Origin: a virus
DNA: 35,677 nucleotides
IMG/VR virus record: IMGVR_UViG_3300045972_000100
Span: 1 to 35,677 of that record
Strand: one strand, 5' to 3'
Shown piece by piece: positions 21,153 to 35,638 of this stretch (position 1 is its first letter; each line of letters begins with the position of its first letter). A model generated the notes under the pieces. The model was not told where the DNA came from and did no database searches. It worked only from the letters and a program-made list of their open reading frames with translations. The position numbers and the translations under genes were made by a program.

Positions 21153-22958
21153 ATGCCATTTGAAATAACAGCGGATTTTATCCGTAGAGCCATTGCCGGG
21201 AAACATTATAACTACTATGAAACGGTAAATCTTGCATTCAAAATCAGACTTCATGCTGACGGTATTATACCTGAAGAACTTATCAATGTTCGCAGACCTA
21301 GCGAACCTGAAGAAATCAAAAAATACAGGAGCAAAATATATGTTCCAAAAACCCGCAATCCGATTTCTAAAGTAATTAATTCACTCGAGAAAATAAGACG
21401 GTCGAGTGATTGGAATATTCAGTATGATTCCAAAAAGGTAAAAAGTTCAATAGCAGAAGATGAACGGTTAGAGGATTATTGCGAAAAGAACTATCCTGGT
21501 TATTCGAGTGTTACGAACTGGGCTTTTTCTGAACTTATGAAGCAATACCTATTGGATGCCAATGGAATTGTAGCAGTGGTTCTTGACGAAATACCAGTTC
21601 CAAATGAATATCCAAAACCAACAGCAAAGTTCTTTGGAAGTAATCAGGTGATTGATTATGTAGAAGGTAAATATGCCGTTTTGTTGAGTTCGGATACCTC
21701 TCAATACTTCACACCAGGCGGAAAGATACAGCGAACTGAAGGTGCTATTTATTATATTATAACTGATACGCAAATAATCAAGTATGAGCAAATCAATTCT
21801 CAAAAAGATTTGAATGCAACGGTTATTTATAATCATAATTTTGGCAAAGTTCCGGCATTTAAAGTTGGAGGTATTTTTCTGAAGCGAAAAAACAACGATA
21901 CGATTTTTGAAAGTCGTATTGCTTCCATGGTGCCAAGTCTTGACGAGGCTGCACGTGAGTATTCAGATTTGCAAGCTGAAATCGTTCAACATATTCATTC
22001 TGAAAAATATGCCTATACAAATTCTGAATGTCCGGATTGCCGTGGTACCGGAAAGACTGATAATTCTGAAGGTAAAAAAATAGAATGTAAGCGCTGTACA
22101 GGTTCAGGTTCTATTTTGAATACTTCACCTTATGGAATTCATTTAATCAATGCGACTTCGATTGGTGAACACCAATTGCCAAATCCTCCAATGGGATATG
22201 TTCAGAAAACAGCGGACATTGCCAAGCTTCAGGATGACAGGATAAGACAACATATTTACGATGCACTTGCAACATTGAATATGGAGTTTTTAGCAGAAAC
22301 TCCACTAAGTCAAAGCGGTACCGCTAAAATGGTAGATAAAGACGAGTTGAATAACTTTGTCAATTCTATTGCAGAGGATATAGTTCGGATTTTGGATAAT
22401 GTATATTTCTACATAAACGAGTACCGGTATCAGGTTGTAGTTCCAAATAAAGCTGACCGTGAAGAAATGCTTCCAAGTATCAATGTTCCGACACGTTATG
22501 ACCTGATTACTTCAAGTCAGTTATTAATGGAGCTGGACACGGCTTCACGGTTTAATATGAGCCCGGTTATTAAACGTTCGTTGGAGATTGATTTTGCAAA
22601 GAAACGCTTCAATACTGAACCCGAAATAAGTTACGAAGCTGAAGCTATATTTGAACTTGACCCGTTATACGGATTAAGTGAAGATGATAAAATGACAAGG
22701 AAGTCAAATGGAGGTATTACCGAGTTGGATTATATCATTTCTTGTAATATCGTTTCGTTTATCAAAAAGGCTTCGAAAGGAGATGACAAGTTTTTTCAGA
22801 AAAGCTATGACGAAAAAATGAAAGTCATGATTCAGTATGCAGGTGAAGTTCAAAAAGCAAATAAGCTTCCAGAACCTCAACCGATTGATTTGGGCGGATT
22901 GAAACCACCTATTCCGCCTATACCTGCAGTTCCACCAACTCCACCGGTTGCTAAATGA
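21153..22958 (+). CDS. Portal protein with an embedded DnaJ-like zinc motif
   Basis: The 601-residue product has a portal-like order: an N-terminal alpha/beta region (RNPISKVINSLEKIRRSSDWNI), a central wing and stem (FGKVPAFKVGG; PSLDEAAREYSDLQAEIVQHIHS), then a helical crown (QDDRIRQHIYDALATLNMEFLAETPLSQSGTAKMVDKDELNNF), and a Pro-rich C-terminal tail. The QSGTA motif with its following helices is frequent in portal proteins. Unusually, residues 293-320 contain CPDCRGTGK and CKRCTGSGS, the paired CxxCxGxG zinc motif of DnaJ. The 12-subunit portal ring is the DNA channel and the docking point for terminase. It overlaps the MuF-like gene by 4 bp. Confidence 0.85.
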   Translation: MPFEITADFIRRAIAGKHYNYYETVNLAFKIRLHADGIIPEELINVRRPSEPEEIKKYRSKIYVPKTRNPISKVINSLEKIRRSSDWNIQYDSKKVKSSIAEDERLEDYCEKNYPGYSSVTNWAFSELMKQYLLDANGIVAVVLDEIPVPNEYPKPTAKFFGSNQVIDYVEGKYAVLLSSDTSQYFTPGGKIQRTEGAIYYIITDTQIIKYEQINSQKDLNATVIYNHNFGKVPAFKVGGIFLKRKNNDTIFESRIASMVPSLDEAAREYSDLQAEIVQHIHSEKYAYTNSECPDCRGTGKTDNSEGKKIECKRCTGSGSILNTSPYGIHLINATSIGEHQLPNPPMGYVQKTADIAKLQDDRIRQHIYDALATLNMEFLAETPLSQSGTAKMVDKDELNNFVNSIAEDIVRILDNVYFYINEYRYQVVVPNKADREEMLPSINVPTRYDLITSSQLLMELDTASRFNMSPVIKRSLEIDFAKKRFNTEPEISYEAEAIFELDPLYGLSEDDKMTRKSNGGITELDYIISCNIVSFIKKASKGDDKFFQKSYDEKMKVMIQYAGEVQKANKLPEPQPIDLGGLKPPIPPIPAVPPTPPVAK

Positions 22959-24220
22959 CAGATATAGAAAAAATACAATCTATAATCGATAATGCCTCAG
23001 ATAAATTCTCTTCCAAATTAAGCGTAACAGAAAAAGGGCTATTAAACGAAGTGCTCACATTGACCCAACAACTCAATGTGAGCAATGGTCGTATTGCTTC
23101 CACGGTTGAAAATCTAAAGTTAGTCAATAAGATTAAAGCCAAACTCAATCAGGTAGTTTTGAATAAAGACTATTTGAAAGACGTTTCAAACCTTGTAAAG
23201 TCGTTTGATGATATCAGTTCGGCACAAATGCAATACTTTTCAAGCCTTACTGACAAGCTACCTGCAACCGATAAGTACAAACTTATGCAGAGCATGGCAA
23301 TTGATAATACCATAACCTCACTTACAAAAGCAGGAATAGAATCTAACGTGACAGGGAAGTTATCGGATATGCTTTTGAAAAGTGTAACCAGTGGAGGTAT
23401 GTATTCGGATTTGGTAGGTAGCATGACTGAGTTTCTGACTGAAACCGAAAAAAGCCCCGGAGCATTGACCCGATTTGCTCAAACGTATGCAAATACAACA
23501 CTCAATCAATTTGCCGGACAGAATAATAAATTAATAACTGACGATTTAGGCTTGGAGTGGTTTCAGTATGTAGGGTCCAATAAAGAAACAACAAGGGAAT
23601 TTTGCGAGGAGCTGTCTAAAAAAGAATATGTACATGTTAGTGAGATTCCTGAAATAGTCAAAGGACATATTGGCGGACATGCGTGTGAGATTTACGAACG
23701 TACCGGATTACCTTACGGAATGATTGACGGAACAGATCAATACAATTTTCAGGTCTATTGTGGAGGGTGGAACTGCGGGCACAAACTCAATCCTATTTCT
23801 AAAGCTGCCGTACCGCTGAACGTTCGGTCAAAATTTGAGGATATGACAATAGAACATGTTATAAAGTCTATTGAAAATGTGAATTCTGAAAAAGGCGTTA
23901 TCAATACAGATAGATTTGGAGACGTTTTGATAAACAAAACAAGTATTAATAAAACCCGAAATGCAAATAATGGAAGTTATAAAAATCAAGTAGATGCACT
24001 TCATGAAATACAGAATGCTAAAAAGTATCTAAATGAATATAAAGGTGATATAAAAATAGAACCTATTAAAGACCCGAACAAAGCAAAAAGTAAAAATAAT
24101 ATTGCAGGATATACAACATTTACAACAAAGGACGGTAAATATGAAATTAGTTTAGAGGTGGACAAGTCTATAAAAGAAAATTACAAACTATATTACATGA
24201 AAAAGCTGGGTAACTTTTAG
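22955..24220 (+). CDS. MuF-like minor head protein with extra C-terminal domain
   Basis: This 421-residue protein directly follows the portal, as MuF head-morphogenesis proteins do. Residues 1-190 are helical. Residues ~205-280 carry the MuF-type signature: FQYVGSNKETTREFCEELSKKEYVHVSEIPE and YNFQVYCGGWNCGHKLNPIS. The last ~120 residues form a separate Lys/Asn-rich module (GDVLINKTSINKTRN; VDALHEIQNAKKYLNEYKGD; GKYEISLEVDKSI; YYMKKLGNF). Its pattern resembles small domains found at MuF C-termini and in phage polyvalent proteins (LPD3 or PBECR-like), some proposed to be nucleases delivered with phage DNA. That assignment is tentative and no catalytic residues can be named. The stop lies inside a hairpin of a candidate RNA on the opposite strand. 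Confidence 0.8.
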   Translation: MTDIEKIQSIIDNASDKFSSKLSVTEKGLLNEVLTLTQQLNVSNGRIASTVENLKLVNKIKAKLNQVVLNKDYLKDVSNLVKSFDDISSAQMQYFSSLTDKLPATDKYKLMQSMAIDNTITSLTKAGIESNVTGKLSDMLLKSVTSGGMYSDLVGSMTEFLTETEKSPGALTRFAQTYANTTLNQFAGQNNKLITDDLGLEWFQYVGSNKETTREFCEELSKKEYVHVSEIPEIVKGHIGGHACEIYERTGLPYGMIDGTDQYNFQVYCGGWNCGHKLNPISKAAVPLNVRSKFEDMTIEHVIKSIENVNSEKGVINTDRFGDVLINKTSINKTRNANNGSYKNQVDALHEIQNAKKYLNEYKGDIKIEPIKDPNKAKSKNNIAGYTTFTTKDGKYEISLEVDKSIKENYKLYYMKKLGNF

Positions 24221-24271
24221 GTCTGTATCGACCTTGCGGTTCGATGGTCAGACAAGTCACTCAGCTTTTAG
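24200..24271 (-). ncRNA. Candidate structured small RNA, antisense to the MuF gene end
   Basis: Read on the minus strand, the outer stem AAAAGCTG...CAGCTTTT pairs 16 positions (24254-24269 with 24201-24216) with only one mismatch and one G-U. An inner stem GTCTG/CAGAC (24249-24253 with 24221-24225) leads to TCGA/TCGA and a CC-GCAA-GG tip, which is a GNRA tetraloop only on this strand. A promoter-like TTG-N20-TATATTTG lies directly upstream, placing the start at about 24270, just where the stem begins. The 3' side ends in five T (24200-24204 complement). The simpler alternative is a bidirectional terminator between convergent genes. Confidence 0.5.
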
Positions 24272-24276
24272 AACTG

Positions 24277-24307
24277 CAAATATAATACATCCAACATAAA
24301 AAGTCAA
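24277..24307 (-). promoter_or_regulatory. Promoter-like element for the candidate RNA
   Basis: On the minus strand, TTG (complement of 24305-24307) is followed after 20 nt by TATATTTG (complement of 24277-24284), matching the Bacteroidetes consensus. The upstream box overlaps the stop codon of the ribbon-helix-helix-like gene. Confidence 0.5.
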
Positions 24308-24450
24308 GTCTTTTTTGAATTTTCTTTCAATAATATGTAAATAATACGTTCAAGACTCACAAATTTGCCCTTTTCTTTGAATTCGGCTTGTTTTTGGATA
24401 AGTATTTCATGAATGCAATCAGGCATGTTTCTGAGCTTATAGGTTTTCAT
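24304..24450 (-). CDS. Small ribbon-helix-helix-like DNA-binding protein
   Basis: A 48-residue gene on the minus strand, the only such gene among the plus-strand structural genes and shorter than normal annotation limits. The sequence has the form of a ribbon-helix-helix repressor: a short strand (KTYKLRNM), a helix beginning PDCIHEILIQKQAEFKEK, a loop, and a second helix beginning VSLERIIYILLKE. RHH proteins bind DNA as dimers through the N-terminal strand, as Arc, MetJ and ParD antitoxins do. It has a promoter (24477-24511 on the minus strand) that overlaps the divergent capsid-operon promoter, so autoregulation and control of the head genes are natural possibilities. An antitoxin-like role towards the adjacent MuF C-terminal domain is a weaker alternative. 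Confidence 0.65.
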   Translation of the reverse strand: MKTYKLRNMPDCIHEILIQKQAEFKEKGKFVSLERIIYILLKENSKKT

Positions 24451-24476: not shown

Positions 24477-24511
24477 CAAAAATAATCAAATTGAGTAAAT
24501 AAATAACAAAA
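24477..24511 (-). promoter_or_regulatory. Promoter of the ribbon-helix-helix-like gene
   Basis: On the minus strand TTTTG (complement of 24507-24511), 22 nt, then TATTTTTG (complement of 24477-24484). The ATG is 26 bp further on. It overlaps the plus-strand promoter at 24491-24523. Confidence 0.6.
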
Positions 24512-24523
24512 TGAGTATTTTTG
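24491..24523 (+). promoter_or_regulatory. Promoter of the scaffold/capsid operon
   Basis: TTG at 24491-24493, 22 nt, TATTTTTG at 24516-24523, 37 bp before ATG 24561. Box sequence and spacing match the divergent promoter on the other strand, so one bound protein could control both. Confidence 0.65.
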
Positions 24524-27001: not shown

Positions 27002-27520
27002 ATGGATTGTCTTAACGGATATATAGGTGTATCGAGTAAAGAATCGACTGAAGCCGAAAGCGGTTTATATGTCGATTCTTTACCGGACATTTCTTTGAGT
27101 TCAATCGAGAAGCTTTCGGATATTGACAGTGCAGATTTTAATGAACTTTGGAAAAGCGTGGAAAAACGTGGAATTCTAAAATTCAGAACATTGTTTATCA
27201 ATGAAGTAAATCGCTGTCACAGGATCAGTAAAATCAGTATTTGTGAATGTTTGATTTGCAGCAATAAAACCCTTTTAGCAACTTCAATTTGGTATCTGTT
27301 AGGTGCTGAAATCATGTTCGAAAGAGCTAATTCAAGTCGATTAAACAAATACACAACTATTGACAGAGCCAAAGCCAAAGAATTAAGAGCCGAATTCATG
27401 GATTTATTCCATTCTGAGTTATCCGTTGCCGTTGCCGGTATCAACATTCACGAAAGTGATTGTATTGAAGAGCAAGTTGGAGAGCGAAATTTAATTACCA
27501 CTTATACGCCAATCATGTGA
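27002..27520 (+). CDS. Head-tail connector protein (adaptor)
   Basis: First gene after the major capsid gene, starting three bases after its stop; 172 residues. It is helical (LSDIDSADFNELWKSVEKRGILKFRTLFINEVNRC; AKAKELRAEFMDLFHSELSVAVAGINIH) with a short cysteine-containing middle (ICECLICSNKT). Gene position and helical content fit the head completion or adaptor protein that docks beneath the portal. It ends ATGTGA, giving the next gene a GTG start overlapping the stop. Confidence 0.6.
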   Translation: MDCLNGYIGVSSKESTEAESGLYVDSLPDISLSSIEKLSDIDSADFNELWKSVEKRGILKFRTLFINEVNRCHRISKISICECLICSNKTLLATSIWYLLGAEIMFERANSSRLNKYTTIDRAKAKELRAEFMDLFHSELSVAVAGINIHESDCIEEQVGERNLITTYTPIM

Positions 27521-35551: not shown

Positions 35552-35638
35552 CGGAAGCTACGAGATTCGAACTCGTGGTACGGTTGCCCGTACGTCAGTT
35601 TAGCAAACTGGTGGTTTCAGCCACTCACCCAAACTTCC
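35552..35638 (-). tRNA. tRNA-Ser (anticodon GCT)
   Basis: On the minus strand the molecule begins GGAAGTT and its 3' end AGCTTCC pairs with it to form the 7-bp acceptor stem, followed by G as discriminator base. The anticodon arm is CCAGT-TTGCTAA-ACTGA-like, giving anticodon GCT. A long variable arm (CGTACGG...CCGTACC) identifies the class II structure of serine tRNAs, and the T arm carries GTTCGAATC. CCA is not encoded. The length of 87 nt fits tRNA-Ser. It is the likely integration site: the 3' half faces the integrase. Confidence 0.96.
35553..35580 (-). other. Presumed att core at the tRNA 3' end
   Basis: Tyrosine integrases of this type recombine within tRNA 3' ends, and the phage side restores the tRNA. 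The T arm and acceptor stem (35553-35580) are the likely core. The matching copy should lie left of the window; none was found inside it. Confidence 0.5.

Follow-up and report, generated by a model that had tools for sequence, protein, structure and literature searches.

We propose, with slightly better than even confidence, that positions 24307-24200 on the minus strand of the window (the whole 35,677-nt stretch of DNA that was analysed) are a structured RNA with its own promoter, and that this RNA is the cognate immunity determinant, i.e. an RNA antitoxin, of a toxin that forms the C-terminal part of the convergent MuF protein. The IMG/VR record that makes up the window is from a temperate phage and has an integrase and a tRNA at its right end. 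The proposal is built on the observed anatomy of the locus, on the recurrence of a toxin with a convergent structured RNA in other loci and, for one RNA type, on covariation and on a linkage to toxins that was recovered when the search started from the RNA.

The portal gene (21153-22958; PHROG portal match, 3e-11) is followed by a gene for a MuF-like minor head protein. In a search with the portal protein, relatives were found in Bacteroidales phages and prophages, e.g. those of Proteiniphilum sp. X52 and Dysgonomonas alginatilytica. Residues 1-295 of the MuF protein are 25-53% identical to its relatives, and the C-termini differ beyond this point. MuF polymorphic toxins have a MuF N-terminus encoded after the portal and an exchangeable C-terminal toxin (PMC5576092). 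As the relatives share the N-terminus and vary at the C-terminus, and the portal gene adjoins, the window MuF has the layout of a polymorphic toxin. Its tail, the putative toxin domain, matched no family in Pfam or NCBIfam, and AlphaFold gave a pLDDT of 47 for the tail alone. We found no homologues of the tail among 393 Bacteroidales genomes, a set that had no positive control. Comparing the whole MuF protein with phages revealed no relatives of the tail, and a MuF profile search of genome contigs revealed no relatives. The idea that the tail is a CdiA_C domain (PF18451) was rejected, with an hhalign probability below 1% and no Pfam match. The features of the locus are listed in Table 1.

Table 1. 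Features of the MuF locus and of the convergent minus-strand unit in the window
Feature	Coordinates	Strand	Basis or remark
MuF-like minor head protein, 421 aa	22955..24220	+	Straight after portal; PHROG head maturation protease, E 4e-4
MuF C-terminal tail (about residues 296-421), variable, putative toxin domain	23834..24217	+	Absent from the short MuF of L002, L004, L019 and L021
Promoter: TTG (24307-24305), N20, TATATTTG (24284-24277)	24277..24307	-	Matches the Bacteroidetes consensus
Predicted structured RNA, about 70-75 nt	24200..24272	-	Fold and z-score; start inferred at about 24272-24269, end inferred at the T-run 24204-24200
GCAA (GNRA) tip loop	24234..24237	-	Fold
Terminator-like end: 3' arm of the outer stem and five T	24200..24208	-	Within the last MuF codons
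48-aa ORF, rival candidate for an immunity or regulator gene	24304..24450	-	Ends just upstream of the RNA promoter
Promoter-like TTG-N22-TATTTTTG upstream of the 48-aa ORF; TATTTTTG at 24484-24477	24477..24509	-	Pattern search
Promoter-like TTG-N22-TATTTTTG ahead of the downstream structural genes (24561 onward)	24491..24523	+	Pattern search

A sequence-only reading of the window had proposed a small RNA at the end of the MuF gene, rather than just a terminator, and its anatomical description was borne out when each element was located and counted again. The 48-aa ORF and the variable, toxin-like MuF tail are features beyond those that it described. The promoter-like element lies where that reading had placed it and fits the Bacteroidetes consensus, which is TAnnTTTG at -7 and TTTG near -33 (PMC7366714). 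The long stem (24269-24201, minus strand) has 8 + 7 pairs flanking one mismatch, i.e. 15 of 16. The inner helix joins GTCTG (24253-24249) to CAGAC (24225-24221), the GNRA loop is limited to the minus strand because the plus strand reads UUGC, and the 3' side runs into five T. The hairpin also overlaps the six final MuF codons, as had been described, and the stop; the terminator-like arm of another locus (L035) likewise overlaps the end of its toxin gene.

The strict promoter pattern, TTG-N18-22-TAnnTTTG, occurred 13 times over both strands of the window; the expectation for the loci of this study is about 0.025 occurrences in 160 nt. The minimum free energy of the hairpin was -30.2 kcal/mol, with z-scores of -6.3 to -6.5 on the minus strand and -4.2 to -5.2 on the plus strand. 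After GC correction, it ranked second among 76-nt segments on both strands of the 35.7 kb. The top-ranked hairpin is at 27022-27096 (+), inside the start of the gene 27002-27520, and has about 13 consecutive pairs (AGTAAAGAATCGAC/GTCGATTCTTTAC). A blastn search of phages with the hairpin region gave chance matches only, and the exact hairpin pattern did not occur in the viral contigs. In the window, Rfam identified only the tRNA at 35552, with no plausible match below threshold. An attC-like or recombination site was also considered and set aside, as no feature supported it.

For the window copy, the hairpin might instead be a bidirectional terminator shared by the MuF gene and the convergent 48-aa ORF, with the ORF serving as the protein immunity gene or as a regulator. 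Both reading frames converge on the hairpin, T-runs are found on both of its sides (five on the minus strand and four on the plus strand), and the ORF has its own promoter-like box. A small ORF is also the usual neighbor after MuF toxins (89.4% of 191; PMC5576092), and the 48-aa ORF may be such an immunity gene. However, it matched no family and no phage relative of it was found, a consensus-like promoter between its stop and the hairpin would be purposeless, and a terminator would need less than a 68-nt fold of several parts whose GNRA loop exists on one strand only. We consider this explanation unlikely. By eye, the ORF looked ribbon-helix-helix-like. The plus-strand box of Table 1 was present ahead of the same downstream structural gene in several relatives.

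The region behind MuF was then compared among phage relatives. Some of them stop at about residue 295 and are followed by nothing or by an unrelated ORF; others have C-terminal domains of 120-540 residues. The tails of L010 and L013 are ADP-ribosyltransferases (PF03496), and on the minus strand behind them a TAnnTTTG promoter leads to an ADP_ribosyl_GH gene and a small ORF. These two loci (L010:2879-5376 and L013:9173-11887) resemble Bxa/BAH/Bsi; the MuF toxin Bxa of Bacteroides stercoris is toxic and has two immunity proteins, one of which is an ADP-ribosylhydrolase (PMC11699363). In the same slot and on the same strand, L005, L012, L014, L017 and L024 have a TAnnTTTG promoter followed by 70-140 nt with no evident protein gene, which are folded and have their terminator where the toxin gene stops. 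Among the toxin tails of these loci, two (L014 and L017) matched CdiA_C above the Pfam cut-off and two (L012 and L024) did so weakly. The window RNA has the same promoter as these units, the same spacing (20), the same 56 nt to the stop and a similar fold strength. Neither the window RNA nor the units of the relatives matched Rfam at the gathering score, except a tRNA-like element in L058; these RNAs fall in no Rfam family.

An RNA in this position could also be a moron sRNA, i.e. a phage-borne regulatory RNA that acts on host or phage mRNAs and has no connection with the toxin. The slot is also a general cargo site, because a phage with a short MuF and no toxin tail carries a 95-aa HTH-like ORF in it (L002:4885-5172, minus). 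However, no such noncoding unit was found in the other short-MuF relatives (L004, L019 and L021), and the type of RNA tracks the type of toxin. We regard an unconnected regulatory RNA as quite improbable.

The reading as a cognate immunity RNA was pursued with the CdiA_C toxins. A published listing counts two members of this family, SitA3 and CdiA-CTII of Bp1026b, among the PD-(D/E)XK tRNases (PMC9990079). With the L014 toxin as query, seven further matches were obtained from 344 Bacteroidales genomes, and all six confirmed homologues (L033, L034, L035, L037, L038 and L039) had a box and a folded unit behind the stop; the box of L038 reads TACATTTA in place of TAnnTTTG. The same arrangement was present in phages of Elizabethkingia (L040) and Riemerella (L041), and loci of this kind also occur in Dysgonomonas alginatilytica DSM 100214 (L027) and Proteiniphilum sp. 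X52 (L026). Toxin type and RNA type stay together from Bacteroidales through to the Riemerella phage. A PDB search with the L014 toxin gave no match. The PF18451 search of 393 genomes yielded 42 places. We pooled the results of all searches into a set of 35 CdiA_C-type loci, cleaned by hand. Left out were other proteins (the sub-threshold CdiA_C matches L067 and L069-L073), a broken copy (L053), a duplicate (L054), one locus with unconfirmed toxin homology (L036) and two weak, distant loci (L042 and L043).

The set was compared with 332 control ORF ends from the same loci. Effect sizes weigh more than p-values in this comparison, given that related loci were counted as separate cases, that some control frames are spurious and that the toxin set was curated manually. 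A TAnnTTTG box facing back toward the gene lay 30-190 nt from the stop in 34 of 35 toxin loci and at 30 of the controls. The strict -33/-7 pattern was found in 26 toxin loci and at seven controls. Around the toxin stop, the median fold z-score on the minus strand was -3.7, compared with -0.3 for controls, and the window's own stop gave -6.0. The CdiA_C relatives thus combine a promoter that faces back, a structured noncoding unit and an end at the toxin stop. The toxins themselves may be fused to MuF or free-standing, and in L047 the domain lies within a protein that has, by eye, a hedgehog/intein-like stretch. A protein-coding role of the units was rejected: there was no conserved frame, and indels and compensatory changes were present. 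A further RNA type, with a GTCGTCTGCGGATGGCAGCAA core, was noticed behind two free-standing CdiA_C toxins (L046 and L049; mean column identity 92%).

One RNA type, R1, permitted a test of the fold. The RNAs of L012, L024, L041, L064 and L068 have a common core, CCGATTAA-TTCG, followed by a helix and a terminator. In a MAFFT alignment of these five sequences, which was not fitted to the R1 model, RNAalifold and pair counts showed that 12 of 20 pairs had changed on both sides (0/500 shuffles). Among 16 distinct aligned copies, in an alignment that was fitted to the model and so favours structure, double changes were found in 15 of 18 pairs (69 cells, compared with 20.5 expected by shuffling; 0/500 shuffles). 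When the R1 model alone was used to search 393 Bacteroidales genomes, 13 matches were obtained in six genomes. Nine of them, found without protein data, end no more than 4 nt from the stop codon of a convergent CdiA_C-like protein, mostly of about 220-230 aa; two of the nine (L074 and L075) are the model seeds L064 and L068, and seven are new. The other four (L076, L078, L079 and L085) are orphans with no toxin within 1.5 kb, and they retain a promoter-like region, the core fold and a terminator. Two orphans, L078 and L079, are near-identical copies that adjoin the same glycosyltransferase-like gene in two genomes.

These results support, for this type of locus, the earlier view of a structured RNA with its own promoter and not merely a terminator: the relatives have a promoter at the same place and on the same strand, with a folded unit and a terminator, one RNA type covaries, and a search with the RNA only arrived at toxin stops. 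The sequence-only reading had also suggested that paired substitutions be sought in related prophages. They are strong in one RNA type of the relatives; for the window RNA, no homologous sequence was found and the R1 model gave no match. The window copy joins the group only through its anatomy, since its tail lies outside CdiA_C, R1 does not recognize its RNA, and no relatives of either were detected.

We favor an RNA antitoxin that binds the toxin; its main rival is antisense pairing, in which a real RNA with its own promoter would base-pair to the toxin mRNA at its 3' end and lower toxin expression in the lysogen, as in type I systems. There are precedents: in the convergent bsrG/SR4-type pairs of Bacillus prophages, whose toxins are small hydrophobic peptides, the antitoxin RNA is on the opposite strand and overlaps the toxin 3' end. 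The RNAs described here similarly lie on the opposite strand over the end of the toxin gene, they are complementary by position to the end of the toxin mRNA at every locus, and many cis-antisense RNAs are made by B. thetaiotaomicron. However, pairing alone needs no conserved fold, and compensatory changes keep the fold across different toxins. The four orphans have no adjacent toxin mRNA to pair with, and most of the RNAs stop at the stop codon, barely reaching into the coding sequence. The conserved fold and the orphans argue against a pure antisense action, and we consider this rival unlikely. Together, the recurrence of the pair, the linkage found by searching in both directions, the conserved fold and the orphans suggest that the RNA works in its folded form and that its target is the product of the neighboring gene.

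The toxin and RNA also seem to change together. The toxins of L074 and L083 have 99% identity in the first 136 aa and 33% in the remainder; the first 44 nt of their RNAs are identical, and the RNAs diverge after that. As judged from these sequences, an exchangeable half of the toxin and an exchangeable half of the RNA change together, like the toxin and immunity gene of polymorphic toxins. In L058, a tRNA-like element (1933-2007, minus) lies within the RNA unit behind a MuF/CdiA_C toxin. It was the weakest of 43 tRNA matches in that genome, and its T-arm is like that of tRNA-Pro. This single case is suggestive of a tRNA decoy, i.e. of substrate mimicry.

Under the RNA-antitoxin reading, we infer that the RNA would be transcribed constitutively from its own promoter in the lysogen, and that the folded RNA would bind the toxic domain of the MuF tail and block it in the manner of type III RNA antitoxins. 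Such neutralization would shield the lysogen from toxin produced at a late stage of the phage cycle or delivered by sister phages. Where the toxin belongs to the CdiA_C (tRNase) family, its RNA might act as a mimic of the substrate tRNA.

Among known systems, the type III systems (ToxIN, CptIN, TenpIN; AbiF/RCd22) are similar in having an RNase-type toxin and a small structured RNA with its own terminator, which is the proposed neutralizer, and in the existence of orphan and chromosomal copies. The RNA of AbiF is able to neutralize in trans (PMC12373285). However, type III antitoxin RNAs are upstream of the toxin, in one operon, and usually consist of repeats (PMC5086642, PMC12373285), whereas the RNAs found here are downstream and convergent with their own promoters and are, by inspection, single structured RNAs without tandem repeats. 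The toxins here are PD-(D/E)XK CdiA_C proteins, many of which are fused to phage head proteins. We did not file these modules as type III because the upstream operon and the repeats are lacking, although they may still work alike. MuF toxins and Bxa/BAH/Bsi share with our loci a MuF N-terminus next to the portal, an exchangeable toxin and an immunity determinant just downstream (PMC5576092, PMC11699363), but their immunity determinants are proteins and here it is a putative structured RNA. Similarly, the CdiA_C (PF18451) tRNase toxins paired with CdiI belong to the toxin domain family of the Bacteroidales loci (PMC9990079), but they are neutralized by proteins, whereas an RNA unit lies downstream in the Bacteroidales loci examined. 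When we searched the open-access literature for RNA antitoxins of CdiA, tRNase or polymorphic toxins, only protein immunity and type III systems were found.

These comparisons show that RNA units regularly accompany one family of tRNA-cutting toxins, at the place where similar toxins have an immunity protein; this suggests that RNA can serve as the antidote. A wider generalization is possible, although we hold it with less than even confidence. Polymorphic tRNase toxins of Bacteroidota, whether delivered by phage heads or chromosomal, may be neutralized by cognate immunity RNAs; the toxin C-termini would co-vary with RNA helices, some RNAs would imitate tRNA and orphans would immunize without a toxin. 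The window RNA would extend RNA immunity to a toxin that is not CdiA_C, and hence to several folds. In the open-access literature searched, immunity to delivered polymorphic toxins is a protein matter. If our proposal is true, a convergent structured RNA in the immunity slot would be a new form of toxin immunity. It would account for toxin genes without a visible immunity ORF and would offer a handle on how RNA restrains RNase toxins.
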